Assembly: GCF_032818155.1 (NCBI RefSeq)
Contig: NZ_CP102590.1
Coordinates: 248,001-312,000, forward strand
Direction: 5' to 3'
Origin: Niallia taxi
GTDB taxonomy: Bacteria > Bacillota > Bacilli > Bacillales > Cytobacillaceae
DNA: 64,000 nucleotides
In this document: piece after piece, positions 12,118 to 50,132 of the stretch
How positions within the stretch are numbered: the first letter of the stretch is position 1
How the letters are laid out: every line of letters starts with the position of its first letter
Translations under genes and position numbers: made by a program
Notes under the pieces: model-generated
Database searches by the model: none
What the model was told of the DNA's origin: nothing
What the model saw: the letters and a program-made list of their open reading frames with translations, nothing else

Positions 12118-13569
12118 ATGGAGAATGGAGCACGTAATCTTATTGCAGATGACGAGAATAAAAGAGGAAACAGGTTCAACAAGAAGGGTAATTCGAAGCT
12201 TATTATTGGAATTGCCGCTGCCATTGTAGTAATAGCAATTATTTTAGGAGGATTTTTCTATTATCAAAGCACTCATTTTAATTCTCAAATAAAAATCAAC
12301 GGTATAAACATAGGCGGATTGACAGCTGACCAGGCATTAAAGAAATTAGGCTCAACTGAATACAAAAATGTCGTTTATATTGGAGAAGACAAAGTCTTTG
12401 ATGGTGAGGATACGAAAATAGAATATACAGATGATGACTTACCAAATATCAAAAAATTGTTAAAAAGCCAGCGGACATGGCTGCCTTCTTCCAAAGCAAA
12501 GGAATTTGAGTTGGAGCCAAGCACAGATGCTTCATCATTCGCGGAAATAAAGCATCAGCTCCAAGATGAGCTGACAGACAGAAATAAAAGCTTAACACCA
12601 CCAAAGGACGCACAAGCTGAGCTTAAAGATGGTAAAATTATCATTACAAAAAGTGAAGACGGCAAGCAATATGACATTGATGGACTTCTCAAGCAATATG
12701 AAAAACAGCAGTTTAAAAGTGAAATCCATTTGGAAGCTGCTTATATTACACCTATTAAAGAGGATAATCAAATTGTAAAACAAGAAGAGCAAAAACTACA
12801 AGAGCTTTTGGAACAAACAATTGATTACAAGGTACAGGATAAAACTTATGCTTTAAAAGGCAGTGATGTCATAAAAAATGCAACTATCACCAAGGATTTG
12901 AAAATTACTGTTGATCCAGGTGACATAGAAAATAAAGTAGCAGAAATAAATGACACTCAATCAACCTTAAATAAAAACTTTAGCTTTAAGACACATACAG
13001 GTTCAGTTATCCAAGTAAAAGGACAGGGATATGGATGGGCGCTAAATGAAGAACAAGAGGCTGCAAGTGTTCAAAAAGCCTTTGAAAATGGCGATAAATC
13101 CCTTTCTGCTTCTAATATTTACGGTAATGGCTGGACAAATGAAGGAATTGGTTATGAAACAACAGGCAACAACGGTATAGGCGATACGTATGCTGAAGTA
13201 TCCCTTGCAGAACAAAAAGCATGGATTTACAAAAACGGGAAATTAGTAGTAACAACAGATGTTGTAACAGGAAGACATAACACAAATGAAGATACACATC
13301 CAGGTGTATGGTATATCCTTTATAAACGAACACCATACACACTTAAAGGAACATCTGTTGGTCATGGCGGTGCATATGAGGTAGAAGTTGACTATTGGGC
13401 ACCATTTACAAACGATGGTCAAGGTTTCCACGATGCTAGCTGGAGAACAAACTGGGCAAGTGATGCCTATTTAACAGCAGGATCTGGTGGCTGTGTTAAT
13501 ACACCTGCAAACATAATGAAAAAAGTGTATGATAATCTTGACACATACGAACCCGTGATAGTTTATTAG
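12118..13569 (+). CDS. L,D-transpeptidase (YkuD) with peptidoglycan-binding domains
   Basis: The product, about 483 aa, crosslinks or anchors peptidoglycan by an L,D-transpeptidase reaction. A positively charged N-terminus is followed by one transmembrane helix (about residues 29-50), so the rest is extracytoplasmic. A long middle region resembles the repeated domain found before YkuD domains. The C-terminal catalytic domain starts near residue 358 and has the conserved His in GFHDASWR and the active-site motif SGGCVNTP with the nucleophilic Cys. It starts at ATG 12118 behind GGAGGG. It is a single gene with its own terminator downstream. Confidence 0.92.
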   Translation: MENGARNLIADDENKRGNRFNKKGNSKLIIGIAAAIVVIAIILGGFFYYQSTHFNSQIKINGINIGGLTADQALKKLGSTEYKNVVYIGEDKVFDGEDTKIEYTDDDLPNIKKLLKSQRTWLPSSKAKEFELEPSTDASSFAEIKHQLQDELTDRNKSLTPPKDAQAELKDGKIIITKSEDGKQYDIDGLLKQYEKQQFKSEIHLEAAYITPIKEDNQIVKQEEQKLQELLEQTIDYKVQDKTYALKGSDVIKNATITKDLKITVDPGDIENKVAEINDTQSTLNKNFSFKTHTGSVIQVKGQGYGWALNEEQEAASVQKAFENGDKSLSASNIYGNGWTNEGIGYETTGNNGIGDTYAEVSLAEQKAWIYKNGKLVVTTDVVTGRHNTNEDTHPGVWYILYKRTPYTLKGTSVGHGGAYEVEVDYWAPFTNDGQGFHDASWRTNWASDAYLTAGSGGCVNTPANIMKKVYDNLDTYEPVIVY

Positions 13570-14556: not shown

Positions 14557-15480
14557 TTAGTACAATTGCTGTAAAACCTCTGCCCTTTTTAATTGGTTCA
14601 ATCGATTTTCTTGGTATTCCATTTGATACATTGCCGAAAAAAGGACATTTAATATGTAGTCAAATGCTATTTGCGAGGAATATGTAGCTATTTTTTCCAC
14701 TTCCTTCGTTTCTAAGCGAGGCACTGTGATGATTACATCAGCTAGATTACCAAGCTCACTTTCTGGTATAGAAGTTAGTAGCAGGATTGGTACCTTATGT
14801 TTTTTTATTAATTGTGCTGCATGTAAATCATTTATAGACTTTGCATCATAACTAATGAATAAGGCACAGTCCTCTGGCATAAGGTTTGCTGCGTTTAATG
14901 CCCATTCTTCCCGCTCCTTTGCAAGGACAGCATACTTGTTAATCTTCCAAAGCCTATTTTGAAAGCCCTCCGCTCGAATATGCGAATCACCTGCAGCAAA
15001 CAGAAAAATACGCTTGGCATGATATAAATGCTTTGTCATCTCCAGTAATGACTCTTCCTTTAACTGATGATATGTCTCTTTAATCGCTTGCTGCGACAAA
15101 TACATAATATCCTCACTTATATTCATAAGAGACGAGTCACCTTCAAATGGAATATCTGGATTTATTTCTTTATTTAAATCAGCTCTTTGTTCAATCGACT
15201 TTAAAAGCAGGATCTTAAACTCCTTAAAGCCTTTGATTCCCAGCTTTTGCACAAACCGAATGATCGATGCATTAGAGGTGTATGTTTTCCGAGCTAACTC
15301 TTGAATTGATATTTTTTCCATTAATGCTGTATTTTCTAGTATAAAATCAGCAATTGTTTTCTCTGTTGTCGTAAAATTTGTTTTGCTTTCAATCTGTCTT
15401 AACAACAAGCTTAAACGCTCCTTTACACCTGAACTATTGTTCCGGAAATCTCTCGAAAAATAAAAGAAATCCAGAACCAT
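14557..15480 (-). CDS. MurR/RpiR-family transcriptional regulator with SIS domain
   Basis: The protein is about 307 aa. The N-terminal HTH_6 region (FTTTEKTIADFILENTALMEKISIQELARKTYTSNASIIRF, about residues 35-75) is followed by a sugar-isomerase (SIS) ligand domain from about residue 130, where phosphosugars bind. An alternative GTG start 18 codons in is possible, since only a weak AGGTA precedes the first ATG. It is divergent from a Gfo/Idh/MocA oxidoreductase with 93 bases between them, so it probably controls that gene. The inducer is unknown. Confidence 0.9.
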   Translation of the reverse strand: MVLDFFYFSRDFRNNSSGVKERLSLLLRQIESKTNFTTTEKTIADFILENTALMEKISIQELARKTYTSNASIIRFVQKLGIKGFKEFKILLLKSIEQRADLNKEINPDIPFEGDSSLMNISEDIMYLSQQAIKETYHQLKEESLLEMTKHLYHAKRIFLFAAGDSHIRAEGFQNRLWKINKYAVLAKEREEWALNAANLMPEDCALFISYDAKSINDLHAAQLIKKHKVPILLLTSIPESELGNLADVIITVPRLETKEVEKIATYSSQIAFDYILNVLFSAMYQMEYQENRLNQLKRAEVLQQLY

Positions 15481-37174: not shown

Positions 37175-37906
37175 TTAAATCGGATTTGTTGGTTCAGAAT
37201 AAAACTCAACTAAATCACCTCTCGCCATTCCCTTTGTATATTCTATAATTTTACCTGAAAGATCATGGGTTGTACCCTCTGTTAATAAGCATGGACTTTC
37301 ACTTTTGATATTCAGTAATTGGCTTTCCTTCTGGTCTGAAAAGGAAATTCGCATCCGCTGTTTTTGCTTTACTAATGTTATGTCGTATTGGTCTCTTAAC
37401 ACTTGATATAAGGAAACATTCTCTTCCATATGCTTTTCAATCCCAGAACAAAACTTATAGGGAAGTACACTGAGTTCAATGACAACTGGTGTTCCATCAA
37501 CAATTCTTAGTCTTTGCAAGCAAAAGATTTCTTCCCCTTGTGAAATCTCTAATGTTTTTGCCATAAATTCATTGGCTTTCTCTCTTTTCATATAAATCGT
37601 TTTTGTAGAGGGTTTCAGCCCTTTATCCAGCATCCCTTTTGTGAAGCTGTTTACAGAAATAAAGTTATATTGAATCCTTTTGTTGGTAATAAATGTGCCG
37701 ACTCTTTCTCTGCGCTCAACAAAGCCCTCCTTTTCCAAAACGGAAATAGCATGTCTTGCGGTCATTCTGCTGATTTTGTGAATTTCCGCCAATTCCCGCT
37801 CTGACGGAAGTTTGTCACCATGCTTTAATGTTCCGTTACTGATTTCTTCGATTATTTTTGTTTTTATTTGCTGATAATATGGAATGTCTTCCTCTATCTC
37901 TTTCAT
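37175..37906 (-). CDS. GntR/HutC-family regulator (FrlR-like) of the putative Amadori regulon
   Basis: The protein is about 243 aa. A winged helix-turn-helix (KLPSERELAEIHKISRMTARHAISVLEKEGF, about residues 32-62) is followed by a UTRA domain ending GMARGDLVEFYSE. ATG 37906 is supported by GAGGAG. It lies 106 bases behind a FrlD-like kinase gene on the same strand and is the only regulator in the cluster. It is therefore the best candidate to bind the four TGGTATATACCA palindromes, a symmetry suited to HutC-type dimers. The effector would be a phosphorylated substrate, by analogy with FrlR; this is inferred. Confidence 0.85.
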   Translation of the reverse strand: MKEIEEDIPYYQQIKTKIIEEISNGTLKHGDKLPSERELAEIHKISRMTARHAISVLEKEGFVERRERVGTFITNKRIQYNFISVNSFTKGMLDKGLKPSTKTIYMKREKANEFMAKTLEISQGEEIFCLQRLRIVDGTPVVIELSVLPYKFCSGIEKHMEENVSLYQVLRDQYDITLVKQKQRMRISFSDQKESQLLNIKSESPCLLTEGTTHDLSGKIIEYTKGMARGDLVEFYSEPTNPI

Positions 37907-38012
37907 TAAGCAACTCCTCACATTTACCCATTTCTAGGAAACTCCTTATTATAATGATACTCTTATTCTATCAAAGAAAAAAAGAAGCTTTAAATAAAAA
38001 GCCCCAAAATGT

Positions 38013-38846
38013 CTATACATTCACAGATAAATCTTTTTTTAAGCCATATCCAAAAGCACCATAGCTTTCACAAACCTTTGCAGCAGCCGTGGCTGCAAGC
38101 TGCATTGCTTCTTGAGCATTACGAGATGGATGAAATTGTGTTAAAAACATGGCAATAAACGAATCCCCGGCTCCAAGCGTATCAATCACATTGGCATTGA
38201 TAATTGGCTGTTCAAATATATGACCATCAGCAAGTAATAATGACCCTTCATCTCCTCTAGTTATGCCAACAAATGGAGTTCCCAATTCATTCACATGGTG
38301 CATGAACGCGATACACTCTGATTTGGTGAGATCACTACCAGAGAAAAAGGCATATTGAATATACGGGCAAATTGTTTGGATATATTCATCTTCGCGGCGT
38401 GATGAAAAATCAAACGAGATTGGCACCATATCGGCCAAAACAGGCAGCTCTGTTTCAATACGGCTATAGACGCTTGTATGCATTAAGTCGTGTGATGCAA
38501 TGAAATCCAGGTCTGCTTCCGTGAAGTTCAATTTAACAAGAGATTGGACACCACCCTTATTAGAGCTAACGAAAACGCGGTCACCATCGTCATTTAACGC
38601 AACGACAGATTCCCAGTTTGGTCCATATGCTTTTCTAATTCTTGAGACATCGATATTTTCTGAAACAAGACTTTTTAATACATGGTCACCTGCCGTATCA
38701 TCACCTAATATTCCAATGTAGGAACTTTTTGTGACACCATTTCTTTTCGCTAAAACAGCCACATTTAATGCATTGCCGCCAGGGTAAATCTCACCTCGAT
38801 CTTTATAAAAATCAACCACGTTATCGCCAACACCAATTAACTTCAT
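38013..38846 (-). CDS. PfkB-family sugar kinase, FrlD-like (copy 1)
   Basis: The kinase is about 277 aa. The N-terminus LIGVGDNVVDFYKDRGEIYPGGNALNVAV has the short GDN-VD and GGNALNVAV pattern of fructosamine kinase FrlD, and the C-terminus has the PfkB anion-hole motif DTLGAGDSFIA with catalytic Asp. FrlD phosphorylates fructoselysine at C6. ATG 38846 follows GGTGGTGGA. It lies downstream of an amino-acid-type ABC transporter, suggesting phosphorylation of the imported compound. A second FrlD-like kinase is encoded 3.5 kb upstream. Confidence 0.85.
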   Translation of the reverse strand: MKLIGVGDNVVDFYKDRGEIYPGGNALNVAVLAKRNGVTKSSYIGILGDDTAGDHVLKSLVSENIDVSRIRKAYGPNWESVVALNDDGDRVFVSSNKGGVQSLVKLNFTEADLDFIASHDLMHTSVYSRIETELPVLADMVPISFDFSSRREDEYIQTICPYIQYAFFSGSDLTKSECIAFMHHVNELGTPFVGITRGDEGSLLLADGHIFEQPIINANVIDTLGAGDSFIAMFLTQFHPSRNAQEAMQLAATAAAKVCESYGAFGYGLKKDLSVNV

Positions 38847-38881
38847 TCTATCCACCACCAATTTAGTCTTTAAAAGTAACA

Positions 38882-38900
38882 CCCCTTCGATACGAAGGGG
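38882..38900 (-). other. Intercistronic hairpin between transporter ATPase and kinase genes
   Basis: CCCCTTCG-ATA-CGAAGGGG is a perfect 8-bp GC-rich stem with a 3-base loop, 11 bases past the ATPase stop. On the minus strand it is followed only by GTTACTTTT, so it may be a partial terminator that lowers kinase and regulator expression or a transcript-stabilising element. Confidence 0.6.
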
Positions 38901-38911
38901 ATTTTTTGCAC

Positions 38912-39679
38912 CTATACGGCATTTCTAGTTAGAGTATTTAAAAATTTATGGATGCGTTCATTTTTATTACTGGAATGGAAGAAGTGCTGCGGTGGCGCAT
39001 CTTGAACAATCACCCCTTGGTCGATAAACACAATTCTGTCGCCAACCTCACGAGCAAAGCCCATTTCGTGCGTAACCACCACCATTGTCATACCTTCTAA
39101 TGCCAGGTTCTTCATGACAACAAGCACTTCCCCCACAAGCTCAGGATCTAATGCAGAAGTAGGCTCATCAAACAGGAGCATCTTCGGCTTCATCGCCAAA
39201 GCTCTGGCAATCGCAATCCGTTGCTGCTGTCCACCTGAAAGGGAGTGTGGATAGGCATCCTGTTTATCCGACAGTCCTACTTTTTCCAGCAGTACCTTTG
39301 CTTCTTCAATAGCTGCTTCCTTTTTCATTTTTCTGACATGGATTGGTCCTTCAATAATATTTTCAAGCACTGTTTTATGTGCGAATAAATGAAAGCCTTG
39401 AAAGACCATGCCAATTTCTGTGCGGAATCTACTAAGTTCCTTTTCAGAGTATGGATGCTTTTTTACTTTGCTCTCTTTAAATAAAATCGAGTTACCTTCT
39501 AAAAGAATATCTCCGCCAGAAGGATATTCAAGCGCATTAATCATCCGGAGAAGCGTGCTTTTGCCGCTGCCGCTTGGGCCAATTATTACGACAACCTCGC
39601 CTTTATTTACAGATAAATCGACCTCTTTGATTACCTCTTTTCCAGAGAAGGACTTTTTAATGCTGGCTAGCTGTAACAT
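38912..39679 (-). CDS. Polar amino-acid-type ABC transporter ATP-binding protein
   Basis: The ATPase is about 255 aa with Walker [10 protein letters not shown], signature [15 protein letters not shown], Walker [12 protein letters not shown] and the His switch [10 protein letters not shown] typical of the HisP/GlnQ group. It overlaps the permease gene by 23 bases. In B. subtilis the fructosamine importer is a sugar-type ABC system, so an amino-acid-type system here is a different solution, closer in type to the SocA-type importer for deoxyfructosyl glutamine in Agrobacterium. Confidence 0.93.
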
Positions 39680-40331
39680 TCCGTTTTCCTCCCCGCTTTT
39701 CTAAATAATTAACGGCGATTGCAAGTGGATAATGCAGAATCCAGTAAATAATCGCTACAAGTGTAAAAATCAGCATATTCTGATAGGTCGAGGCAGCAAG
39801 CAAATTCCCTTGATGCATCACTTCAGTTACTGTAATAACAGCAGCTAAGGACGAATTTTTGATTAAGATAATCGCTGAGTTGCCGATAGCAGGAAGAACA
39901 TTACTGAATGCCTGGGGAAGTATAATCCTCTGCATCGCCTTTGAATAGTCCATGCCAACTGCCTTCGCAGCTTCCATTTGACCCGTTGGTACAGCTTTGA
40001 TTCCAGCGCGGAAGGTTTCCGCTAAATAACCGCCCTCATTAAAGGAAAGCGCAATAATTGCAGACTGAAACGCTGTCAGTGTTATGCCAAAGGAAGGAAA
40101 AACAAAGTAAACGTACATCATCTGAACTAGTAAGGGAGTGCCTCTAACGATGCTGATATAAATACTACATATCCTATTAATCACTTTATTTTTCGATAAT
40201 CTGCCCAATGCAACGATCAAACCCAGTATTAAGGATAGGATGAGCGAAAGAATCGTTAATTCAATCGTAATAACAGTTCCTTGCAGCAAGCTTGGCATAA
40301 AATCAACAATATTTTCCCAAATCGCATTCAT
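39657..40331 (-). CDS. Polar amino-acid-type ABC transporter permease
   Basis: The protein is about 224 aa with five or six membrane segments and the HisM/GlnP coupling sequence [26 protein letters not shown] (about residues 119-144). One permease gene means a likely homodimer. It lies 14 bases after the binding-protein gene and overlaps the ATPase gene. Confidence 0.93.
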
Positions 40332-40345
40332 TTATGAACCCCCTC

Positions 40346-41149
40346 TCATTCATTAAAGTCCCAATCTACTCCCCATTTTTCATAAATTTCCTTAAACGTG
40401 CCATCCTCTTTTGCTGCTGTAATTGCTTCATTCAATTTATCTACTAAATCTGTGTTATCCTTGGCAATACCGATGCCAATCTCGCCAGCAAGGGAAGGAG
40501 CATAATCCTCTACTACACGGAATTTAGCATCAGGATTTTTGCTTTTTAAATAAGTGAATGTTGGTGAATCAGCAATTGCTGCATCTAGACGTTTGTTTTG
40601 AATATCCTTTAATAAATCAGCATTAGTTTCATATGTTTTAATATTTAAATCAAGTGAACCATTATTTTCTTCGAGCATGTCTTTATAGGATGTACCGATT
40701 TGCACTCCAACTGTTTTCCCTTTTAAATCTTCAAGAGATGTCGTTTTCGTGTCACCTTCTTGAACAATTAATCCTTCTCCGTAACCAAAGACAGGCTCTG
40801 TAAAGTTAATAACCTTTTTTCTCTCCTCTGTAATATACATACCATCTACAATCACATCTGCTTTGTCAGATTGAAGGGATGGAATAAGAGAATCCCATTC
40901 TGCCGTTTGCATTTCTACTTTAAGTTCAGCTCTTTTTGCCAAGTCATTAATGATGTCATACATAAAGCCTTCATATTTACTAGTTTTTGGGTCAATAATC
41001 CCGAATGGTGCCCCACCGGCTGTAGTAATTACGCGAATCGTATCATCACTGTCAGATCCTTGGCCAGATGTAGATGAGTTAGAATTACCACAAGCAGATA
41101 AAGCGATTAAAAGCATACAAAGCAAACCAATGAATAGACCTTTTTTCAT
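40346..41149 (-). CDS. Polar amino-acid-type ABC transporter substrate-binding lipoprotein
   Basis: The protein is about 267 aa. A lipoprotein signal ends LIALSAC (Cys20), followed by a Ser/Gly/Asp-rich linker. The SBP_bac_3 domain shows GGAPFGIIDPKTSKYEGFMYDI (about residues 45-66), ERKKVINFTEPV and the GVQIGTSY loop. It is the first gene of the transporter-kinase operon. The substrate is inferred as a fructosyl-amino acid from neighbours; a free amino acid is the alternative. Confidence 0.92.
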   Translation of the reverse strand: MKKGLFIGLLCMLLIALSACGNSNSSTSGQGSDSDDTIRVITTAGGAPFGIIDPKTSKYEGFMYDIINDLAKRAELKVEMQTAEWDSLIPSLQSDKADVIVDGMYITEERKKVINFTEPVFGYGEGLIVQEGDTKTTSLEDLKGKTVGVQIGTSYKDMLEENNGSLDLNIKTYETNADLLKDIQNKRLDAAIADSPTFTYLKSKNPDAKFRVVEDYAPSLAGEIGIGIAKDNTDLVDKLNEAITAAKEDGTFKEIYEKWGVDWDFNE

Positions 41150-41202
41150 TTTTATTCCCCCATGTTGGTTTATTGTAAGATACTCCGAATTCTCCCATTT
41201 AA

Positions 41203-41216
41203 GGTAAGCGCTATCA
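41203..41216 (-). promoter_or_regulatory. Candidate cre (CcpA) site of the transporter operon
   Basis: On the minus strand TGATAGCGCTTACC has a symmetric AGCGCT core and two departures from the cre consensus. It lies 54 bases upstream of the binding-protein start, downstream of the promoter, a position where CcpA blocks transcription. Confidence 0.55.
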
Positions 41217-41315
41217 TTATTTTTTAGAAGATTAATAAAGTTTCTCCTTCCTTCTTCTTGTCAACTCACCCTTTCTTTATTTATCTGAATTTTTAGTTTT
41301 TGTTGAATTTATCAT

Positions 41316-41345
41316 ATCATAGAATTTCTTCTTGGTATATACCAA
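41316..41345 (-). promoter_or_regulatory. Promoter overlapped by palindromic operator TTGGTATATACCAA
   Basis: The exact palindrome TTGGTATATACCAA lies at 41332-41345. Read on the minus strand, its first six bases (TTGGTA, 41340-41345) can serve as a -35 with TATGAT (41316-41321) as -10 at 18-bp spacing. Repressor binding would cover the promoter of the ABC transporter-kinase operon. Three further copies of TGGTATATACCA lie upstream of the FrlB-like gene. Confidence 0.75.
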
Positions 41346-41370
41346 AAGATGATTTTCTATGTCAGATATT

Positions 41371-42249
41371 CTACCAATTTACATGAAAATTTCCGTTAAC
41401 CTTCTGTGTTGGCAAGGATATGACAAACGCATCTGAATCGATATTTTTCACCACTCGCAATAATTCCGTCCATTCACCATTAACAATTACACAAAGCAAT
41501 ACGGAACGATCGGTATGACTGTAAACCCCCATTGCCCTCCATGAAGTGACGCCCCTACTTAGCGTCTTATTTAATTGCGTGGAAACAGCTTCACCTTGAT
41601 TTGTAATAATCATGATCGTGTTTCTTTGCGCAATATGTAAAATCGCATCATATGTTTTTGTACCCACAAAAAACGATAGAATTGTAAACATGGCTGCTTC
41701 TAAATCAAAGAGATATGCTGAGACGACAACGATACTAGCACTGAAAATGAGACCGAAATTACCAATGGAGATATTGTAATATTTCGCTACAACACGAGAA
41801 AGAATGTCAAGACCGCCCACTGAACCACCAAGCCTGAGAATTAAGGCCGCTCCTATTCCCGATATCATTGCTCCGAATATGCCATTTAGCAGCATATTAT
41901 TCGTCCATACTGCCTGAATGGCAATCCATTCGAGAAAGACAGAGGAAATGATAACAGATAAAATGGTATAAAGGATAAATTTCTTGCCAATATGAATGTA
42001 GCCAAGAACGAGCAAAGGTATATTGAAAAGCAAATACTGAATTCCAATCGGCCAGCCGAATAGATGATAAAATATGACACAAACACCACCAAGTCCTCCA
42101 GCCAAAAGCTCAGCAGGTGCTAAAAATTGATTAGTACCTAAGGCGAATAAAAAGCAGCCTGCCGTTAATCCTGCCATATCAAAAGCGATGCGAGATTTTT
42201 TGCCAAGTCGTAAATTGTGCTGAAGCTTTAGTGAATATCCTTTTTCCAT
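41371..42249 (-). CDS. YitT-family membrane protein (DUF161/DUF2179)
   Basis: The protein is about 292 aa. Five or six N-terminal membrane segments contain the family pattern GTNQFLAPAELLAGGLGG and RLGGSVGGLDILS. A cytoplasmic DUF2179 domain occupies the last 90 residues (TLSRGVTSWRAMGVY). Molecular function is not established; YitT proteins are suspected transporters. It lies 137 bases after the second kinase on the same strand and just upstream of the operator of the transporter operon, with only a weak ribosome binding site. It may be an efflux or transport part of the same regulon. Confidence 0.85.
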   Translation of the reverse strand: MEKGYSLKLQHNLRLGKKSRIAFDMAGLTAGCFLFALGTNQFLAPAELLAGGLGGVCVIFYHLFGWPIGIQYLLFNIPLLVLGYIHIGKKFILYTILSVIISSVFLEWIAIQAVWTNNMLLNGIFGAMISGIGAALILRLGGSVGGLDILSRVVAKYYNISIGNFGLIFSASIVVVSAYLFDLEAAMFTILSFFVGTKTYDAILHIAQRNTIMIITNQGEAVSTQLNKTLSRGVTSWRAMGVYSHTDRSVLLCVIVNGEWTELLRVVKNIDSDAFVISLPTQKVNGNFHVNW

Positions 42250-42386
42250 CTTACTAACCGAGTATATTTCTATTTATTTTTTGCAAATGCTTTAGGCTAA
42301 TATATGATTTTGGATAATAACTAGTCATAGCCAATTTTAAAACAGGCTGGGACAGACATGTTTTCCTCATTCCTTCATCACTCCAT

Positions 42387-43169
42387 TTAATAAGGGTTAA
42401 ATACCTGTACAACCTTTGAAGCAATGTTTGCACCTGATTGTAAGCATTCCTGGATGTTTTTTCCTTTAACAAGACCATGTATATATCCTGCTATAAACGA
42501 ATCACCGGCGCCAACTGTGTTTACAACAGGAACACGGACAATATCCGCTTCGTAGAAACGGTTGCCATCATAAGCAATGCTGCCCTTTTCCCCTAATGTA
42601 ACAATAACCGTCCTTGGACCAAGCTGATGCACATCTTTCATGTATGCTTCAATATAAGCGTCTTTTTGTTGATAGGAGAAAAAGGCATAATCGACATTTG
42701 GCAAAATTGCCTTAACCTCTGCATTTTCAAGCTTCACGGTAAAATCATAAACAATTTGCACACCTGTTTGTTTTATTAGTGGAAGCTGATGATTTATTTT
42801 TCCCCAAAAGGATGTGTGTACGAGATCATGTTCAGCTATGAACTCCATATCATTCTGATTTAGCTGGAAGTTTTCAAGCACACCTTCAAAATACTTTGTA
42901 TGAATTCTTTCTGTGCCTTTTAAAGCCATCTTCGTGATAGCTGTATTGCCTTGTTTTTGCTTAAAAAAGGAGAGGTTGATGTTATGTTTTTTCAAAAAGC
43001 TAAGCATTTGCTCCCCATAATCATCATTACCTGTCACACTGACAAGGGAAACTGGCACAGACAATCTGCTTAAATGAACAGCAACATTGACAGAATTACC
43101 AGTCGGACAGCTGATGCCAAGCTCTTCATAATCATCGATACAGTTATCACCAACAGTTACGACCCGCAT
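42387..43169 (-). CDS. PfkB-family sugar kinase, FrlD-like (copy 2)
   Basis: The kinase is about 260 aa, the length of E. coli FrlD (261). Motifs are VVTVGDNCIDDYEELG at the N-terminus, TGNSVNVAVHLSR and NTVGAGDSFIAGYIHG with the catalytic Asp. ATG 43169 has a strong AGGAGGGAG site; upstream in-frame codons lie in yjbQ. It closes an operon of FrlB-like deglycase, amidohydrolase and YjbQ. It resembles E. coli FrlD more closely than copy 1 does, so the two kinases may act on different Amadori compounds. Confidence 0.87.
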   Translation of the reverse strand: MRVVTVGDNCIDDYEELGISCPTGNSVNVAVHLSRLSVPVSLVSVTGNDDYGEQMLSFLKKHNINLSFFKQKQGNTAITKMALKGTERIHTKYFEGVLENFQLNQNDMEFIAEHDLVHTSFWGKINHQLPLIKQTGVQIVYDFTVKLENAEVKAILPNVDYAFFSYQQKDAYIEAYMKDVHQLGPRTVIVTLGEKGSIAYDGNRFYEADIVRVPVVNTVGAGDSFIAGYIHGLVKGKNIQECLQSGANIASKVVQVFNPY

Positions 43170-43179
43170 GATCTCCCTC

Positions 43180-43611
43180 CTATTCTCCGAGAATATGGAC
43201 AACAAATTCCCGAAGCAATGGTCCGTCCATTTCCACAAAATAGATGGTTTGCCTTGAGCCTATCACCATTTCCCCGTCATGGAGCGGAAAAAAAGTATCT
43301 TTCCCAATTAGAGCAGATCTTAAGTGGGAATAGCCATTAACCGCCATTTGTCCATCTGAGTGCAGGAATCGTGCATGATGATAATCATTTACTCGTGGTG
43401 CAAGGCGCTCCAGCATCTCAAGCAGGTCCTTTTCAATATCAGGCAACCCTTCATTAACGGTAATGCCACTAGTTGTATGCTTTGTCATAATATGAACAGT
43501 GCCAATAGTTAATCCTGCTGTGGCAACAGCTTCTTTCACGGTGTCTGTAATATTAATGATTTCCAGATCATGTTTTGTTTGCAAGGAAATTGTTTTTACA
43601 ACTGATTTCAT
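43180..43611 (-). CDS. YjbQ family protein (UPF0047)
   Basis: The protein is about 143 aa, usual length. Family hallmarks are VHIMTKHTTSGITVNEG (about residues 39-55), the conserved HARFLHSDGQMAVNGYSHLRSAL with its histidines, and GSRQTIYFVEMDGP. E. coli YjbQ has weak thiamin phosphate synthase activity, but the physiological role is open. Its ATG overlaps the amidohydrolase stop (ATGA) with GGAGG inside that gene, so translation is coupled. Presence in a sugar-amine cluster is unusual. Confidence 0.9.
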   Translation of the reverse strand: MKSVVKTISLQTKHDLEIINITDTVKEAVATAGLTIGTVHIMTKHTTSGITVNEGLPDIEKDLLEMLERLAPRVNDYHHARFLHSDGQMAVNGYSHLRSALIGKDTFFPLHDGEMVIGSRQTIYFVEMDGPLLREFVVHILGE

Positions 43612-44477
43612 CCCTCGTTCCTCCGATCCAAATCCAGTAATACAGCAGCATTATCATGAAAAATATTCGCTTCAAGCTTAGGATTTAACTGCAAATCCTG
43701 TACAGCCCAAACAAGCCTTTTAGGATCAACTCTTGGTGCATTAGAGCCAAAAACAATCTGCTTGGCAAGGCTTCGCTTTATATTGTTTAGACCAATCTGC
43801 TGCTCAAGCACCTGTCTAACTGAATCAGATGGAGTACCACTGAAAAGGATAGATGTATCAAAATAAACATTTTTGTATTTAACTCCAAGCATAAAGGCTT
43901 CAGAAACCCATGGCCACGCAAATTGTGCAATGATAACCTTTAAGGCTGGAAAATCTTGAATGACTTTTTCGAGCATTAGCGGATGTGCCAATGCCGCTTG
44001 ACCTATTGGTGATAAGCTCATGCCACAGTGAAAAAAGATCGGTATGTCTAGTTCACAGCAAAGCTGATAGATTGGATAAGCATAATCTTTATTGTTTATA
44101 TCAAATTGCTGTAAGGAAGGATCTAATTTCAGTCCTTTTAGTCCATATTCCTTGATTGATTTTTCAAGCTCCACTACTGCATTAGGACTCTTGGGATCGA
44201 CGGAAGCGAAACCAATAAAGCGGGAGTTTTTTTCCATCAACCAGGAAATTTGTTCATTTGTGACGAGCTTACAGCCATGTGCAGTGGTGCAATCAATTGG
44301 CATTATAACCGCCTTTTCAATGCCCGCCGCATCAAGCTGATACATATGGGACGCAAGTGAGTGCGGTGAACTGTAAACACCATAAACATCCTTAACGTAT
44401 TTTTCGAGTGCTGGGTCTTGATCAACGATTTCCTTTATATGCAGCGGGTGCTGATGAATATCAATCAGAATAATCAC
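43608..44477 (-). CDS. Amidohydrolase-family metal-dependent hydrolase
   Basis: The TIM-barrel protein is about 289 aa, of the amidohydrolase-2 type. The N-terminal metal motif is IDIHQHPLHI, and IFFHCG (about residue 142) supplies a later ligand. LDPSLQQFD and GSNAPRVDPKRL mark the later strands; the usual Asp of the TD/SD motif is replaced by Asn (GSNAPR). The reaction cannot be told from sequence: hydrolysis, decarboxylation and lactone cleavage are all known. It may process the amine part or a lactone. The GTG start has AAAGG unusually close. It is coupled to yjbQ. Confidence 0.8.
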   Translation of the reverse strand: MIILIDIHQHPLHIKEIVDQDPALEKYVKDVYGVYSSPHSLASHMYQLDAAGIEKAVIMPIDCTTAHGCKLVTNEQISWLMEKNSRFIGFASVDPKSPNAVVELEKSIKEYGLKGLKLDPSLQQFDINNKDYAYPIYQLCCELDIPIFFHCGMSLSPIGQAALAHPLMLEKVIQDFPALKVIIAQFAWPWVSEAFMLGVKYKNVYFDTSILFSGTPSDSVRQVLEQQIGLNNIKRSLAKQIVFGSNAPRVDPKRLVWAVQDLQLNPKLEANIFHDNAAVLLDLDRRNEG

Positions 44478-44497
44478 TACCTTTCATTAGAATGGTG

Positions 44498-44532
44498 TGC
44501 TGAAGGAGTATGTTAAGAATACTCCTTCAGCA
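44498..44532 (-). other. Intercistronic stem-loop between FrlB-like and amidohydrolase genes
   Basis: A perfect 14-bp stem (44498-44511 with 44519-44532) with a 7-base loop begins 7 bases after the deglycase stop. No U run follows on the minus strand, so read-through with differential transcript stability is more likely than termination. Confidence 0.7.
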
Positions 44533-44539
44533 TTTGCTA

Positions 44540-45553
44540 TTAGTAAGCAAGTGTCCGGTAATATCTTCTCTTATCCAATGAATGACCGCGCTTATCCTCT
44601 AAATGAATACTCACACGTTGCAAAGCAGTTGCTAGGACGAGCGGTGCTAAATACTTTCTGAATTCTGTGCTGATACCCTCAAGAGCATAGTCTTTTGTAT
44701 CAAAGATCGTTAGCTTTTTCGTAAAGTCATTCGCAAAATTCTCAACACGATCCATTAATGGACGAGTCTCATCCTCTGATTTTAAAAGAATCATACTCAT
44801 ATTCTCATCAACAATCTCGATTGTGCCATGGAAAAACTCTGCAGCATGAATCGCCTTTGTCGGAATCCATTGCATTTCCTCCAGCACACACATGGAATAA
44901 GCATATGTTCTGCCCCATGCAGTGCCAGAGCCGACAAGCATATGATACGTTTCATCCTTATATTTATTGGCAAAATCCTCTGCCTTTTTATCACTGTCTT
45001 GTTTCACTTGTACTAATTGATCGGGTATTGCCTCTAATTGAGAGATAAATCTTTCATAGTCTTGAAACTCACCGTTGTTATGAATCAAGCGGAAAATAAC
45101 GATATACATTTGCAGATTAATAGAATCTGCCGCAAAATCATTTTCAGCATAGTTAGCAATTGGATAATCAACGATATTCGCTAAAGCAGTTCCCATTTCA
45201 CCAACTAAGCCAAGCGTTGTTGCTCCTCTTTGCTTACAGAATTCCGCTGCAGCAACTGTTTCTGCAGTTGTCCCTGATAACGATGACAAAATAACAAGCG
45301 AATCCTCGCCAAATTGCTTATGGTTTTGCAGCATAAACTCTGAAGCAATCTCCGCGTATGTTGGAATTGTTGAAATCGAATTTAGCATATAATCAAATGG
45401 ATACATAATCGCAATCGAACCGCCTGATCCAAGCAAAAAGATATTTTTAAATTTTTTCTTGGAGATTTCATCAACCTTTGCTTCAATTTCGCCTCTTAAT
45501 CCAACTGCCCCTATTGTGACTTTTAAATAGTTTTCCTGATTAAATTTTAACAA
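44540..45553 (-). CDS. SIS-domain protein, FrlB-like fructosamine-6-phosphate deglycase
   Basis: The protein is about 337 aa. Two SIS domains are visible: GSGGSIAIMYPF near residue 43 and SSLSGTTAETVAAAEF near 91 in the first, GSGTAWGRTYAYSMCVLEEMQW near 205 in the second. The EFFHGTIEIV segment corresponds to the region holding the catalytic His of FraB/FrlB enzymes. The C-terminal DKRRYYRTLAY matches the FrlB ending. FrlB cleaves fructoselysine-6-phosphate to glucose-6-phosphate and lysine. The TTG start has AAGGAGTG about 8 bases upstream. It is the first gene of its operon, with palindromic operators in front. Confidence 0.85.
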   Translation of the reverse strand: MLKFNQENYLKVTIGAVGLRGEIEAKVDEISKKKFKNIFLLGSGGSIAIMYPFDYMLNSISTIPTYAEIASEFMLQNHKQFGEDSLVILSSLSGTTAETVAAAEFCKQRGATTLGLVGEMGTALANIVDYPIANYAENDFAADSINLQMYIVIFRLIHNNGEFQDYERFISQLEAIPDQLVQVKQDSDKKAEDFANKYKDETYHMLVGSGTAWGRTYAYSMCVLEEMQWIPTKAIHAAEFFHGTIEIVDENMSMILLKSEDETRPLMDRVENFANDFTKKLTIFDTKDYALEGISTEFRKYLAPLVLATALQRVSIHLEDKRGHSLDKRRYYRTLAY

Positions 45554-45583
45554 TGGTAATCACTCCTTATCTGATTGTATTTC

Positions 45584-45595
45584 TGGTATATACCA
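45584..45595 (-). promoter_or_regulatory. Operator palindrome TGGTATATACCA, FrlB-like operon, proximal
   Basis: This exact 12-bp palindrome begins 30 bases before the deglycase start codon, between promoter and ribosome binding site, where a bound repressor would block elongation. Confidence 0.75.
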
Positions 45596-45792
45596 AAAAT
45601 AAGAAAATAGTTTTGTGTTGTTGCAGATAATAATGGTACGGGATAAATCATAGGAACCTGCTTTGATGGCTGTAACGGAAGAAGTTAAAAACTCTTGTTG
45701 AAAAGTTTCGTAATGTGGTAAGGTGCTAGTTTGTTCCCTATGTATCAGTATTTCTTTAAATAACACATAGATGACGTGAATTCTTTATATAC

Positions 45793-45804
45793 TGGTATAT
45801 ACCA
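45793..45804 (-). promoter_or_regulatory. Operator palindrome TGGTATATACCA, upstream pair, first copy
   Basis: This exact copy lies 26 bp (centre to centre) from the next copy at 45819 and about 209 bp from the proximal operator. That spacing would allow looping between sites. The promoter itself could not be fixed. Confidence 0.75.
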
Positions 45805-45818
45805 AATCATTGTTGATA

Positions 45819-45830
45819 TGGTATATACCA
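45819..45830 (-). promoter_or_regulatory. Operator palindrome TGGTATATACCA, upstream pair, second copy
   Basis: This exact copy forms a tandem pair with 45793-45804. The intervening leader (45596-45792) has no convincing gene. Confidence 0.75.
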
Positions 45831-47425: not shown

Positions 47426-48727
47426 ATGCCAACCTCTTATTCACTAACAGCACAATTACAGGAAAAAAGAGCTAAATACGTGCCGAAGGGTGTCAGTAAC
47501 GGCAATTTAAATTTTGTCAAAGATGCCAAAGGAGCAACGGTAACAGATATTGATAATAGAGAATGGATTGATTTTGCCGGTGCAATCGGAACATTAAACG
47601 TCGGCCACAGTCACCCGAAAGTAACGGCTGCTGTTAAAAACCAGGTAGAAAAGTTTTTGCATCCTGGCTTTAACGTCATGATGTACGAGGGCTATATTAA
47701 TCTTGCAGAAAAACTATGCCAAATTACTCCTGGAGATTTTGAAAAACAAGCGATTTTCTTTAACTCTGGAGCAGAAGCGGTTGAAAATGCGATTAAAATT
47801 GCGCGCCGCTATACGAATAGACCTGCAGTCGTTTCGTTTGTCCGAGGGTATCACGGCCGCACTAATTTAACTATGGGCATGACAAGTAAGGTGAAGCCAT
47901 ATAAGTTCGGGTTTGGTCCCTTCGCTCCCGAAATCTATCAAGCTCCTTTTCCATATTTGTATCATAAACCAGCTGGAATGACAGACGAGGAATATGTAGA
48001 CCAGGTTATTCAAGACTTTGAGGATTTCTTTATCGCAACAGTTGCACCAGAAATGGTCGCTTGTATTGTGATGGAACCAGTACAAGGTGAAGGCGGGTTT
48101 GTTATCCCTCCAAAGAAATTTGTCCAAGCAGTGAAGCAATTCTGTGAGTCACATGGAATTGTATTTGTGGCAGATGAAATTCAAACTGGCTTTGGCCGTA
48201 CTGGCAAATTATTTGCAATCGAGCATTTTGATGTGACTCCTGACTTAATCACTGTATCCAAATCACTAGCCGCTGGTCTGCCGTTAAGCGGTGTTGTCGG
48301 TAAAACAGACATATTAAATGTTGCGGATCCTGGCGAGCTTGGTGGCACATATGCAGGCAGTCCTGTTGCATGTGCGGCAGCATTAGCAGTTATTGATATT
48401 GTAGCAGAAGAAAATTTGGTAGCAAAAGCAGAAATCATCGGGCAAACCATCGAAGCGAAATTGCAGACGCTTCGTACAAGACATGACTTTATCGGCGATA
48501 TCCGCCGCTTAGGAGCAATGGTTGCTTGTGAGATTGTAGAGGGTCAGGGAAACAAAAAGCCAAACAAAATAAAAACAGCACAAATTACAAAATTTGCAAA
48601 TGAAAATGGATTACTACTCCTTTCAGCAGGCCTTAAAAGTAATGTCATTCGCTTCTTAGCTCCACTTGTTATTACAGATGAAGAGCTGGAAACGGGATTA
48701 GCAATTCTTGAAAAAGCTTTTGAATAA
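47426..48727 (+). CDS. gabT: 4-aminobutyrate aminotransferase
   Basis: GabT, about 433 aa, moves the amino group of GABA to 2-oxoglutarate, forming succinate semialdehyde and glutamate. Class III aminotransferase motifs are FFNSGAEAVENAIKIAR (about residues 111-127), FVADEIQTGFGRTG and the PLP-lysine in TVSKSLAAGLPLSG. It starts at ATG 47426 behind AAGGGAGAG. gabD follows after 13 bases and gabR is divergent, which supports GABA over other class III substrates. Confidence 0.95.
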   Translation: MPTSYSLTAQLQEKRAKYVPKGVSNGNLNFVKDAKGATVTDIDNREWIDFAGAIGTLNVGHSHPKVTAAVKNQVEKFLHPGFNVMMYEGYINLAEKLCQITPGDFEKQAIFFNSGAEAVENAIKIARRYTNRPAVVSFVRGYHGRTNLTMGMTSKVKPYKFGFGPFAPEIYQAPFPYLYHKPAGMTDEEYVDQVIQDFEDFFIATVAPEMVACIVMEPVQGEGGFVIPPKKFVQAVKQFCESHGIVFVADEIQTGFGRTGKLFAIEHFDVTPDLITVSKSLAAGLPLSGVVGKTDILNVADPGELGGTYAGSPVACAAALAVIDIVAEENLVAKAEIIGQTIEAKLQTLRTRHDFIGDIRRLGAMVACEIVEGQGNKKPNKIKTAQITKFANENGLLLLSAGLKSNVIRFLAPLVITDEELETGLAILEKAFE

Positions 48728-48740
48728 GGGTGGGATATAG

Positions 48741-50132
48741 ATGACCAATATATTAGAAGTAAAAAATCCGGCGACAGGTCAAGTTATTCAAGCGATTCCT
48801 ATTAATACAAAGGAGGAAATTAAACAAGCCATTAAAAACGGCCATAAAAGCTTTAAAAAATGGGCAGGAATCCATGCTCATGAGCGCTCCCGTTTGCTGA
48901 AAAATTGGGCGCAAATCATACAAGCACATAAAGCAGACATCGCTGAAGTTATGACATTAGAAAACGGCAAGCCTTTGGCAGAATCACTCGGAGAAGTCGA
49001 TTATGCGACAAGCTATATTGACTGGTATGCAGAGGAAGCAAAACGCATTTACGGAAGAACGGTGCCTGCAACCTCTGAAACAAAAAGGATTGTTGTAACA
49101 AAACAGCCAATCGGCTTAGTTGCTGCCATAACACCATGGAATTTTCCTGCGGCGATGATGACGAGAAAAGCAGCACCAGCATTGGCTGCAGGCTGTCCGT
49201 TTATTGTCAAACCAGCTCCTGAGACACCATTAACAACGATGAGGCTGATCGAGCTTGCACACGAAGCTGGTATTCCTGTTGATGTCATTCAATATGTAAA
49301 TGGTGATGGACCTGATATTGGCGAATTGTTTACTAGCAGTGAGTATATTCGTAAAATTACGTTTACAGGGTCGACACCTGTTGGGAAGCAGCTAATGAAA
49401 AACAGTGCAGATACTGTCAAACATATGACGATGGAATTAGGCGGTCATGCCCCACTCATCGTTGCAGAGGATGCAGATCTCGAATTTGCTGTGCAGCAAA
49501 CAATGCTGACAAAATTCCGCAATGCCGGCCAAACATGCGTTTGTGCGAACAGAATTATTGTTCATGAAAGTATTGCCGAGGTTTTCTCAACAAAGCTTGC
49601 AGAAGCAGTCAATAAATTAAAGGTTGGTAATGGCCTTGATGAAGCTACACAGATAGGACCAATCATTAACGAAAAAGGCTATAACAAAATAGTCAAGCAA
49701 ATCAATGATGCCCTTGCTAAAGGCGCAGTCGCTCTTGCAGGAAATCATTATACCGCAAATACAGAATACGGTTATTACTTTGTTCACCCAACTGTTTTAA
49801 CAAACGTAACCCTTGATATGACCATTATGCAGGAGGAAACATTTGGACCAGTTGCGCCAATTATTACGTTTAAGAATTTAAAGGAAGCGGTCGAAATCGC
49901 GAATGGCACACCATATGGTTTAGCTGCTTACTTCTTTACAAATAACTATAAAACAGGCATCTATTTGAGCGAAAATCTCGATTTTGGGATTGTTGGCTGG
50001 AATGATGGTGCACCATCTGGAGCTCATATTCCGTTTGGAGGCATGAAGGAAAGCGGGATTGGCCGTGAAGGCGGCTTGGAAGGAATGGAACCATATTTAG
50101 AGACAAAGTATTTATCCATTGGCAATCTGTAA
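48741..50132 (+). CDS. gabD: Succinate-semialdehyde dehydrogenase
   Basis: GabD, about 463 aa, oxidises succinate semialdehyde to succinate and completes GABA breakdown. Aldehyde dehydrogenase motifs are [20 protein letters not shown], the catalytic Glu in MELGGHAP and the catalytic Cys in [11 protein letters not shown]; the paired cysteines CVC are typical of succinate-semialdehyde enzymes. It lies directly behind gabT and is followed by a strong terminator. Confidence 0.95.

Follow-up and report, generated by a model that had tools for sequence, protein, structure and literature searches.

Heated food, decaying plants, and soil commonly contain Amadori compounds. The bacterial routes described for their use, in the portions of the literature on which we draw here and below, employ one kinase, or a phosphotransferase system (PTS), and one deglycase per compound (PMC12632257, PMC4697335, PMC12675984). 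Here we analyze a stretch of 64,000 nucleotides from Niallia taxi (the window; positions 248,001 to 312,000 of contig NZ_CP102590.1, which accounts for 1.44 Mb of a 5.29 Mb genome) with a ten-gene cluster on its minus strand (37175..45553). This cluster probably encodes the inducible catabolism of N-fructosyl amino acids, i.e., Amadori compounds, through a core pathway, a regulon, and a second unit made up of a kinase (KinB), an amidohydrolase-fold protein (AHyd), and a YjbQ protein.

The closest described systems each share part of this gene set. B. subtilis frlBONMD-frlP also combines an FrlD-type kinase, an SIS-domain deglycase, ABC import, and a GntR-family regulator, but its deglycase belongs to another clade, its importer FrlONM/FrlP is of the sugar type, and the operon as presented in passages of PMC12632257 includes one kinase and no AHyd, YjbQ, or epimerase gene. 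E. coli frlABCDR resembles the window in its FrlD, a relative of KinB, and in its GntR-family regulator FrlR, and resembles loci related to the window in its epimerase FrlC; it differs in using the transporter FrlA and no ABC system, in its single kinase, and in an FrlB only 22% identical to the window SIS protein. That protein falls instead with GfrF of Salmonella gfrABCDEF, a system in which a mannose-family PTS both transports and phosphorylates, with no kinase or ABC importer given in the relevant parts of PMC12675984, whereas the window encodes an ABC importer. The Salmonella fra locus, for fructose-asparagine, likewise pairs a kinase with an SIS deglycase, and two loci related to the window (L134 and L136) carry asparaginase genes, but the window cluster is without one and its SIS protein lies in the GfrF clade, not in that of FraB. 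Intestinimonas AF211 can be likened to the window by description rather than by its genes: an ABC transporter, a kinase, and a deglycase for fructoselysine stand in one cluster, the passages of PMC4697335 leaving the ABC type unstated and naming no second kinase. Lastly, a cluster on Enterococcus faecium DO plasmid 2 (L100) brings together AHyd, YjbQ, an FrlD-type kinase, and an SIS gene, but has an FrlA-type permease, a kinase outside the clade of module KinBs, and an AHyd frame truncated at its N-terminus.

On the minus strand, the window genes follow the order SIS, AHyd, YjbQ, KinB, a deletion scar, YitT, solute-binding protein, permease, ATPase, KinA, and GntR. Every gene named in a preliminary description of the region is present in the list of open reading frames (ORFs) of the window, and profile searches agree with that description. 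Pfam and NCBIfam place each cluster gene, except that AHyd is without an NCBIfam match; the Pfam profiles are GntR with UTRA, two PfkB kinases, an ABC ATPase, one permease, a family 3 solute-binding protein, YitT with DUF2179, UPF0047, Amidohydro_2, and SIS.

As judged from its sequences, the core of the cluster is very probably an Amadori pathway of import, 6-phosphorylation, and cleavage, as first proposed, and its individual reactions, together with the effector of the regulator, are likely given the protein families involved. KinA (38013..38846, minus strand; 277 aa from an internal ATG in an ORF that opens at 38882) is a putative fructosamine 6-kinase of the Bacillus FrlD type. It shares 55% identity with the FrlD proteins of Bacillus siamensis and B. 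atrophaeus, and grouped with Bacillus FrlD proteins in a first kinase tree (12 rows, 91/97). Both KinA and KinB, the latter on the E. coli FrlD branch, belong to FrlD groups and retain an intact GAGD catalytic motif, in line with the two FrlD-like kinases initially reported. The likely starts of KinA (38846), KinB (43169), and the regulator (37906) are internal ATGs judged by eye, and the protein search with KinA covered the best 120 of 1852 homologues.

The SIS-domain protein (44540..45553, minus strand; 337 aa) is predicted from tree and alignment to be a GfrF-type fructosamine-6-phosphate deglycase, and is 98% identical to its counterpart in N. taxi locus L009. Its closest solved relative is 2A3N (39% identity), ahead of 3EUA (35%) and 9OU6 (27.5%); their records carry generic names, and we take them to be Salmonella GfrF, B. 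subtilis FrlB, and Salmonella FraB, respectively. A tree of 37 SIS rows (L023 and L025, the additional SIS copies in L021 and L022, and the majority of other SIS matches were not among them) put the window protein and 2A3N together in a clade of 25 rows (99/99) that excludes the remaining reference deglycases, with long branches meeting close to the root. The label FrlB-like is therefore better replaced by GfrF-type, and the position with GfrF rules out a non-deglycase of the GlmS or NagB-like kind. Clustering with non-deglycase SIS families, which the preliminary description had named as a refutation of its Amadori reading, was thus not observed. Residues E226 and H242, which presumably have a catalytic role in SIS deglycases, align with the EMQW and FFHG motifs of 2A3N, 3EUA, 3FKJ, and 9OU6; residue numbers for FraB were not found in the portions of the FraB literature searched. 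A Priestia plasmid (L069) and L103 (G036) have operons in which a close SIS relative is accompanied by FrlC-, FrlA-, FrlD-like (E. coli-type), and FrlR-like genes, a content that fits a fructoselysine-type substrate, and GfrF is reported to cleave fructoselysine 6-phosphate (PMC12675984, where one figure legend swaps GfrE and GfrF).

Several observations weigh against this view of the core. KinA scored 190.2 bits against the fructoselysine 6-kinase equivalog (NF007321), its best family, below the cut-off of 247, and a second kinase tree, for which three long-branch rows (L017_A, L019_A, and L022_A) were dropped and two rows added, did not resolve its position with respect to Bacillus FrlD. Against NF008481, the equivalog for E. 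coli FrlB, the SIS protein reached 77.8 bits, far under the cut-off of 430. EMQW occurs in 31 and FFHG in 29 of the 37 SIS rows, but E. coli FrlB has neither pattern. The catalytic families also diverge in the substrates to which they point: alpha-glycated amino acids for KinA, fructoselysine for SIS and KinB. For B. subtilis FrlD and FrlB, a preference for alpha-glycated amino acids is described (PMC12632257, in part), which in itself speaks for the Amadori reading of the core.

The second unit lies between the SIS gene and the scar on the minus strand, and consists of AHyd (43608..44477), YjbQ (43180..43611; a UPF0047 paralogue linked to the module, 102.5 bits for TIGR00149 against a cut-off of 67.75), and KinB (42387..43169; 260 aa from an internal ATG in an ORF that opens at 43238). 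KinB is a PfkB kinase related to E. coli FrlD, and passed the cut-off of the fructoselysine 6-kinase equivalog with 313.2 bits. From its recurrence across genomes, KinB-AHyd-YjbQ is a conserved module, which rules out the gene combination as a one-off. Besides the window, we gathered 14 module loci, namely L009, L010 (Neobacillus), L012 (Domibacillus robiginosus), L014 and L135 (both Paenibacillus P25), L020, L100, L101, L102, L133, L134, L136, L137, and L178, each with an AHyd relative that matched AHyd or P0161 at E ~1e-50 or better or that stood in a locus already fetched. The lowest AHyd identities are those of L178 (36%) and L100 (39%, over the truncated frame); L009 is a near copy of the window. 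YjbQ adjoins AHyd in 15 of 15 loci, and a KinB-type kinase directly adjoins the pair in 12; for L135 and L100, an FrlD-like kinase lies two genes away. FrlC-like epimerase genes, whole or partial, were detected in 11 of the 14 other loci. The preliminary description had presented a second kinase with an amidohydrolase, YjbQ, and YitT as a combination not met before: AHyd-YjbQ in fact recur in 14 more loci, and KinB adjoins the pair in 11 of these. Within the literature searched (mostly open-access, as titles and abstract openings) we found no description of the module and no tie of YjbQ or an amidohydrolase to Amadori catabolism. The amidohydrolase passages of PMC5270733, for instance, deal with purines and oxamate.

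The 12 adjoining KinBs form a clade of their own (100/100 in the first kinase tree, 100/99 in the second), next to E. coli FrlD and the kinases of L069 and L103. The branch splitting 14 module YjbQs from 17 other YjbQs and E. coli YjbQ has support of 92/89, below the strict mark (tree without L148, for which the cut gave no sequence), and the window genome encodes one YjbQ of each kind. Paired distance matrices of KinB, AHyd, and YjbQ agree (r = 0.95, 0.76, and 0.78; permutation p ≤ 0.0004; 10 of the 15 loci, or 9 for YjbQ as the L134 copy is split, with L009, L100, L101, L135, and L178 left out), but these correlations may include shared species history. Other points count against the module as a fixed unit: L101 has AHyd-YjbQ without a kinase, and the SIS match of its genome is only GlmS-sized; YjbQ was absent from five of the seven contexts read among 28 non-window AHyd matches across the phylum, the five being those of weaker relatives and holding, by eye, pyruvate-formate-lyase-like glycyl radical enzymes, and from the context of a weak AHyd match in Arthrobacter (L138).

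In an evenly sampled set of 397 genomes of the order, the only AHyd match at E ≤ 1e-40 was the window's own genome, and among 398 genomes sampled evenly across the phylum, 26 had a match at E ≤ 1e-20, three of them, own genome included, at 6e-50 or better; N. taxi, a certain AHyd match, is in neither match list. Plasmid records yielded 584 SIS, 286 AHyd, and 416 KinB matches, of which three contexts were opened. Agrobacterium and rhizobial plasmids encode FrlD-like kinases ~32% identical to KinB, possibly opine-catabolic. Distant AHyd relatives (L105, L106, L107, L108, and L110) were seen by eye near pyruvate-formate-lyase-type glycyl radical enzymes and activases. L135 (G824:C1:2105000-2124000) combines E. 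coli-like FrlB (59%) and FrlC (68%) with a GfrF-clade SIS protein, two FrlD-type kinases, AHyd, and YjbQ, several frames being interrupted. By eye, a Fontibacillus locus (L013, 12005-15079) has an SIS-kinase operon followed by a transporter-like gene and a long amidohydrolase-like gene, and a similar long amidohydrolase adjoins the E. faecium cluster.

The sequence of AHyd is unusual for its fold. The protein matches PF04909, its structure model has a predicted local distance difference test score (pLDDT) of 95.3, and the nearest folds are 3IRS and the ACMSD, resorcylate-decarboxylase, and LigJ enzymes. In an alignment of 45 rows (the window and 44 from the best 120 of 834 homologues), Asn occupies the position of the strand beta-8 Asp in 43 rows (Asn246 in the window), and Gln that of the beta-6 His in 12, the window included (Gln185). 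We take Asp and His to be the usual residues at these positions in metal-dependent amidohydrolases, and AHyd lacks the full metal and catalytic residue set that includes the beta-8 Asp. For the YjbQ family, nine distinct sequences are found among solved structures, none of them named by function, and YjbQ is given as of unknown function in PMC7954711 (in part).

Between KinB and YitT, where the window has 137 bases, N. taxi L009 carries two FrlC-like genes, 47% identical to each other and 28–31% to E. coli FrlC. The flanks of this deletion scar (42250..42386, minus strand) align to L009 at 13103-13191 (98.9%) and 14757-14878 (85%), with ~1.57 kb of L009 missing and ~39 bases unaligned in between. 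Neobacillus has three FrlC-like 3-epimerase genes at the same position, and D. robiginosus also has two FrlC-like genes. Since these relatives have two to three such genes, loss in the window strain is the simpler reading. Relocation of the deleted epimerases was ruled out, the sole match elsewhere in the genome being 25% identical at E 3.6e-9. As both epimerase genes are gone from the window strain, its module may be handicapped.

We next consider how these genes are tied together. The regulator (37175..37906, minus strand; 243 aa from the ATG at 37906) matches PF00392 and PF07702, and is of the HutC type anticipated for it. The palindrome TGGTATATACCA occurs in four exact copies in the window, taken here as putative operators: three precede the SIS gene (operator 1, 45819..45830; operator 2, 45793..45804; operator 3, 45584..45595, just upstream of the gene), and one (operator 4, 41333..41344) lies ahead of the importer genes, before that for the solute-binding protein. 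The outermost copy ends at 45830, the right edge set for the region beforehand. With up to two mismatches, the window has eight matches to TGGTATATACCA, compared to 2.58 ± 1.64 in shuffled sequences, none of 100 shuffles reaching eight. Across the 5.29 Mb genome, matches to the 13-mer TTGGTATATACCA with at most one mismatch include the exact 12-mer at the four cluster places only. Among 41 loci longer than 9 kb, the motif was found in L009, L010, L011, L012, L013, L015, L024 (Domibacillus), and L104, as well as in L140, whose single site is identical to one in L010, i.e., the same site. In the same search, these eight are the loci whose regulator shares 52% identity or more with that of the window (8 of 8), and the other large loci counted, L140 apart, had no motif and regulator relatives at most 35% identical, or none. 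In D. robiginosus, AHyd, YjbQ, and KinB form a block separate from the importer genes, and a copy of the palindrome precedes this block too. A GntR DNA-binding domain, a UTRA domain, and a conserved palindrome are thus all present, and we assume a TGGT-N4-ACCA-like operator form for the HutC/UTRA family. By this pattern, the four palindromes tie the cluster genes into one predicted regulon. FrlR of B. subtilis is described in one account as a repressor that a phosphorylated Amadori compound probably releases (PMC12632257) and in another as an activator (PMC7475707), with no FrlR operator sequence found in the examined passages of the B. subtilis papers.

Taken together, gene content, family placement, palindromes, and module recurrence, all of which can be read from the sequence, are consistent with the following scheme. 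The polar-amino-acid ABC importer would bring in an N-fructosyl amino acid, KinA would add a phosphate to C6 of its sugar, and cleavage by the GfrF-type SIS deglycase would free the amino acid and glucose 6-phosphate. The GntR/UTRA protein would repress the cluster through the four TGGTATATACCA sites until a phosphorylated Amadori compound loosens its binding. KinB-AHyd-YjbQ, usually together with FrlC-like epimerases, would take a related sugar-amine that the core cannot handle: KinB would phosphorylate it, and AHyd and YjbQ would convert the phosphorylated product. The substrate and chemistry of this unit are a guess on our part. It could be another enzymatic branch of Amadori catabolism, so far undescribed, with a dedicated FrlD-like kinase, an AHyd without the usual beta-8 Asp, and a YjbQ paralogue, a possibility that we rate short of even.

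The same genes could also form two parallel Amadori routes under one regulator, with KinA and SIS acting on alpha-glycated amino acids, KinB, SIS, and the FrlC-like epimerases on epsilon-fructoselysine and its epimers, and AHyd and YjbQ clearing side products. The Bacillus type of KinA (alpha) and the E. coli type of KinB (epsilon), with specificities as given in passages of PMC12632257, speak for this arrangement, as does the frequency of FrlC-like genes in the module loci. We nevertheless hold it to be somewhat doubtful, as KinB forms a module-only clade rather than falling inside the FrlA-linked FrlDs, and travels with AHyd-YjbQ even in L137 and L102, where the stretch read includes no SIS gene.

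That the module serves an unrelated sugar and shares only its regulator with the Amadori core seems unlikely, even though it stands alone in L137, AHyd-YjbQ of L101 adjoin putative glycyl-radical genes (by eye), and the genome that holds L024 (Domibacillus) encodes the core but gave neither an AHyd nor a YjbQ match. KinB lies on the FrlD branch; for 13 of the other 14 module loci, an SIS gene of the FrlB/GfrF/FraB type is found in the locus itself or elsewhere in its genome; and the shared palindrome is kept in D. robiginosus. Least probable is a role of AHyd and YjbQ in opening cyclised Amadori compounds (lactones or lactams, as in chrysopine-like opines) for the kinase and deglycase, as Asn for the beta-8 Asp and Gln for the beta-6 His argue against ordinary metal-activated hydrolysis, and decarboxylases score slightly higher by fold.

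The import step proposed for the core rests on three minus-strand genes: a family 3 solute-binding lipoprotein of the polar amino acid type (40346..41149; PF00497), a single permease gene (39657..40331; TIGR01726, 108 bits against a cut-off of 42), and a TcyN/GlnQ-type ATPase (38912..39679; NCBIfam profiles). The importer had been likened to HisJ/HisM/HisP; its amino-acid type is borne out, but there is one permease gene, and models of cystine and glutamine systems give higher scores for the ATPase and permease than those of HisP/HisM do. The binding protein fits the model of the lysine/arginine/ornithine subfamily best, but falls short of its cut-off. The protein keeps an Arg and an Asp found at the equivalent alignment positions of E. 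coli GlnH, ArgT, and HisJ, which we take to bind the alpha-amino acid head; at the Asp position, the L133 protein has Glu (alignment read without the out-of-frame L136 row and the partial L134 row). Amino-acid-type importers accompany FrlD/SIS genes in ten related loci (L009, L010, L011, L012, L024, L109, L133, L134, L135, and L136; in L134, the SIS gene lies just outside the fetched stretch) and thus represent a recurring solution, unlike the sugar-type importers of B. subtilis and, by eye, L104. The view that known frl sets use either a permease or a sugar-type ABC importer needs revision given these loci, and an ABC importer for fructoselysine has also been modelled in Intestinimonas (PMC4697335, in part).

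Amino-acid genes in related operons suggest, by their predicted functions, that the substrates are fructosyl amino acids and that separate operons are tuned to separate ones; for the window, the glucosyl-amine derivative and opine-like conjugate named in the preliminary description may also apply. L134 includes a split asparaginase, L136 a type II asparaginase and an argininosuccinate-lyase-family protein, L178 a C4-dicarboxylate transporter, and the Paenibacillus operon of L014 a gamma-aminobutyrate (GABA) transaminase (TIGR00700, over cut-off). Another Niallia operon, L109 (G003:C4:360000-379000), joins an amino-acid importer, a KinA-type kinase, and an SIS protein to aspartate ammonia-lyase, which suggests the use of fructosyl-aspartate; its FrlC-like gene looks broken. 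The window genome has a second frl-type locus, L139 (G000:C1:3305000-3323000), with SIS, a KinA-like kinase, an FrlR-like regulator, and an amino-acid-type binding protein. This locus adjoins genes for pyrroline-5-carboxylate (P5C) dehydrogenase and PutP, both scoring over cut-off, and for a relative of proline dehydrogenase, which scores under it, and would suggest the use of fructosyl-proline.

Within the window, GabT and GabD (GABA transaminase and succinate-semialdehyde dehydrogenase; 47426..50132, plus strand; PRK06918, 747.6 bits against a cut-off of 676; TIGR01780, 639.5 against 646, just under) lie just beyond MocR, an arrangement also found in N. taxi L009. These neighbors may use the released amine, for which GABA is an attractive candidate, although lysine-derived 5-aminovalerate would suit GabT too. 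In Neobacillus (L010, 9227-9540), gabD and gabT fragments stand beside the SIS gene, a remnant of the window synteny.

The remaining features of the cluster include a YitT-family membrane protein (41371..42249, minus strand; PF02588 and PF10035), retained in five related loci (L009–L012 and L024) and cut by the locus end in L012. A pattern scan found a 15-pair hairpin in the SIS/AHyd intergenic region (44497..44533), a possible attenuator or mRNA processing site whose terminator-like score is confined to the plus strand, and a terminator-like hairpin of eight pairs followed by a T-run lies 3′ of KinA (37984..38005, minus strand).

Overall, the window gene set is a variant of the known Amadori pathway, with a recurring importer type, a GfrF-type deglycase, and a conserved extra module. 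The repeated presence of this three-gene unit points to a step or substrate not yet described, and the module offers a concrete handle on the role of YjbQ. If true, a second branch would give UPF0047 a defined physiological role, and would represent a means of deglycation not reliant on an SIS enzyme alone.

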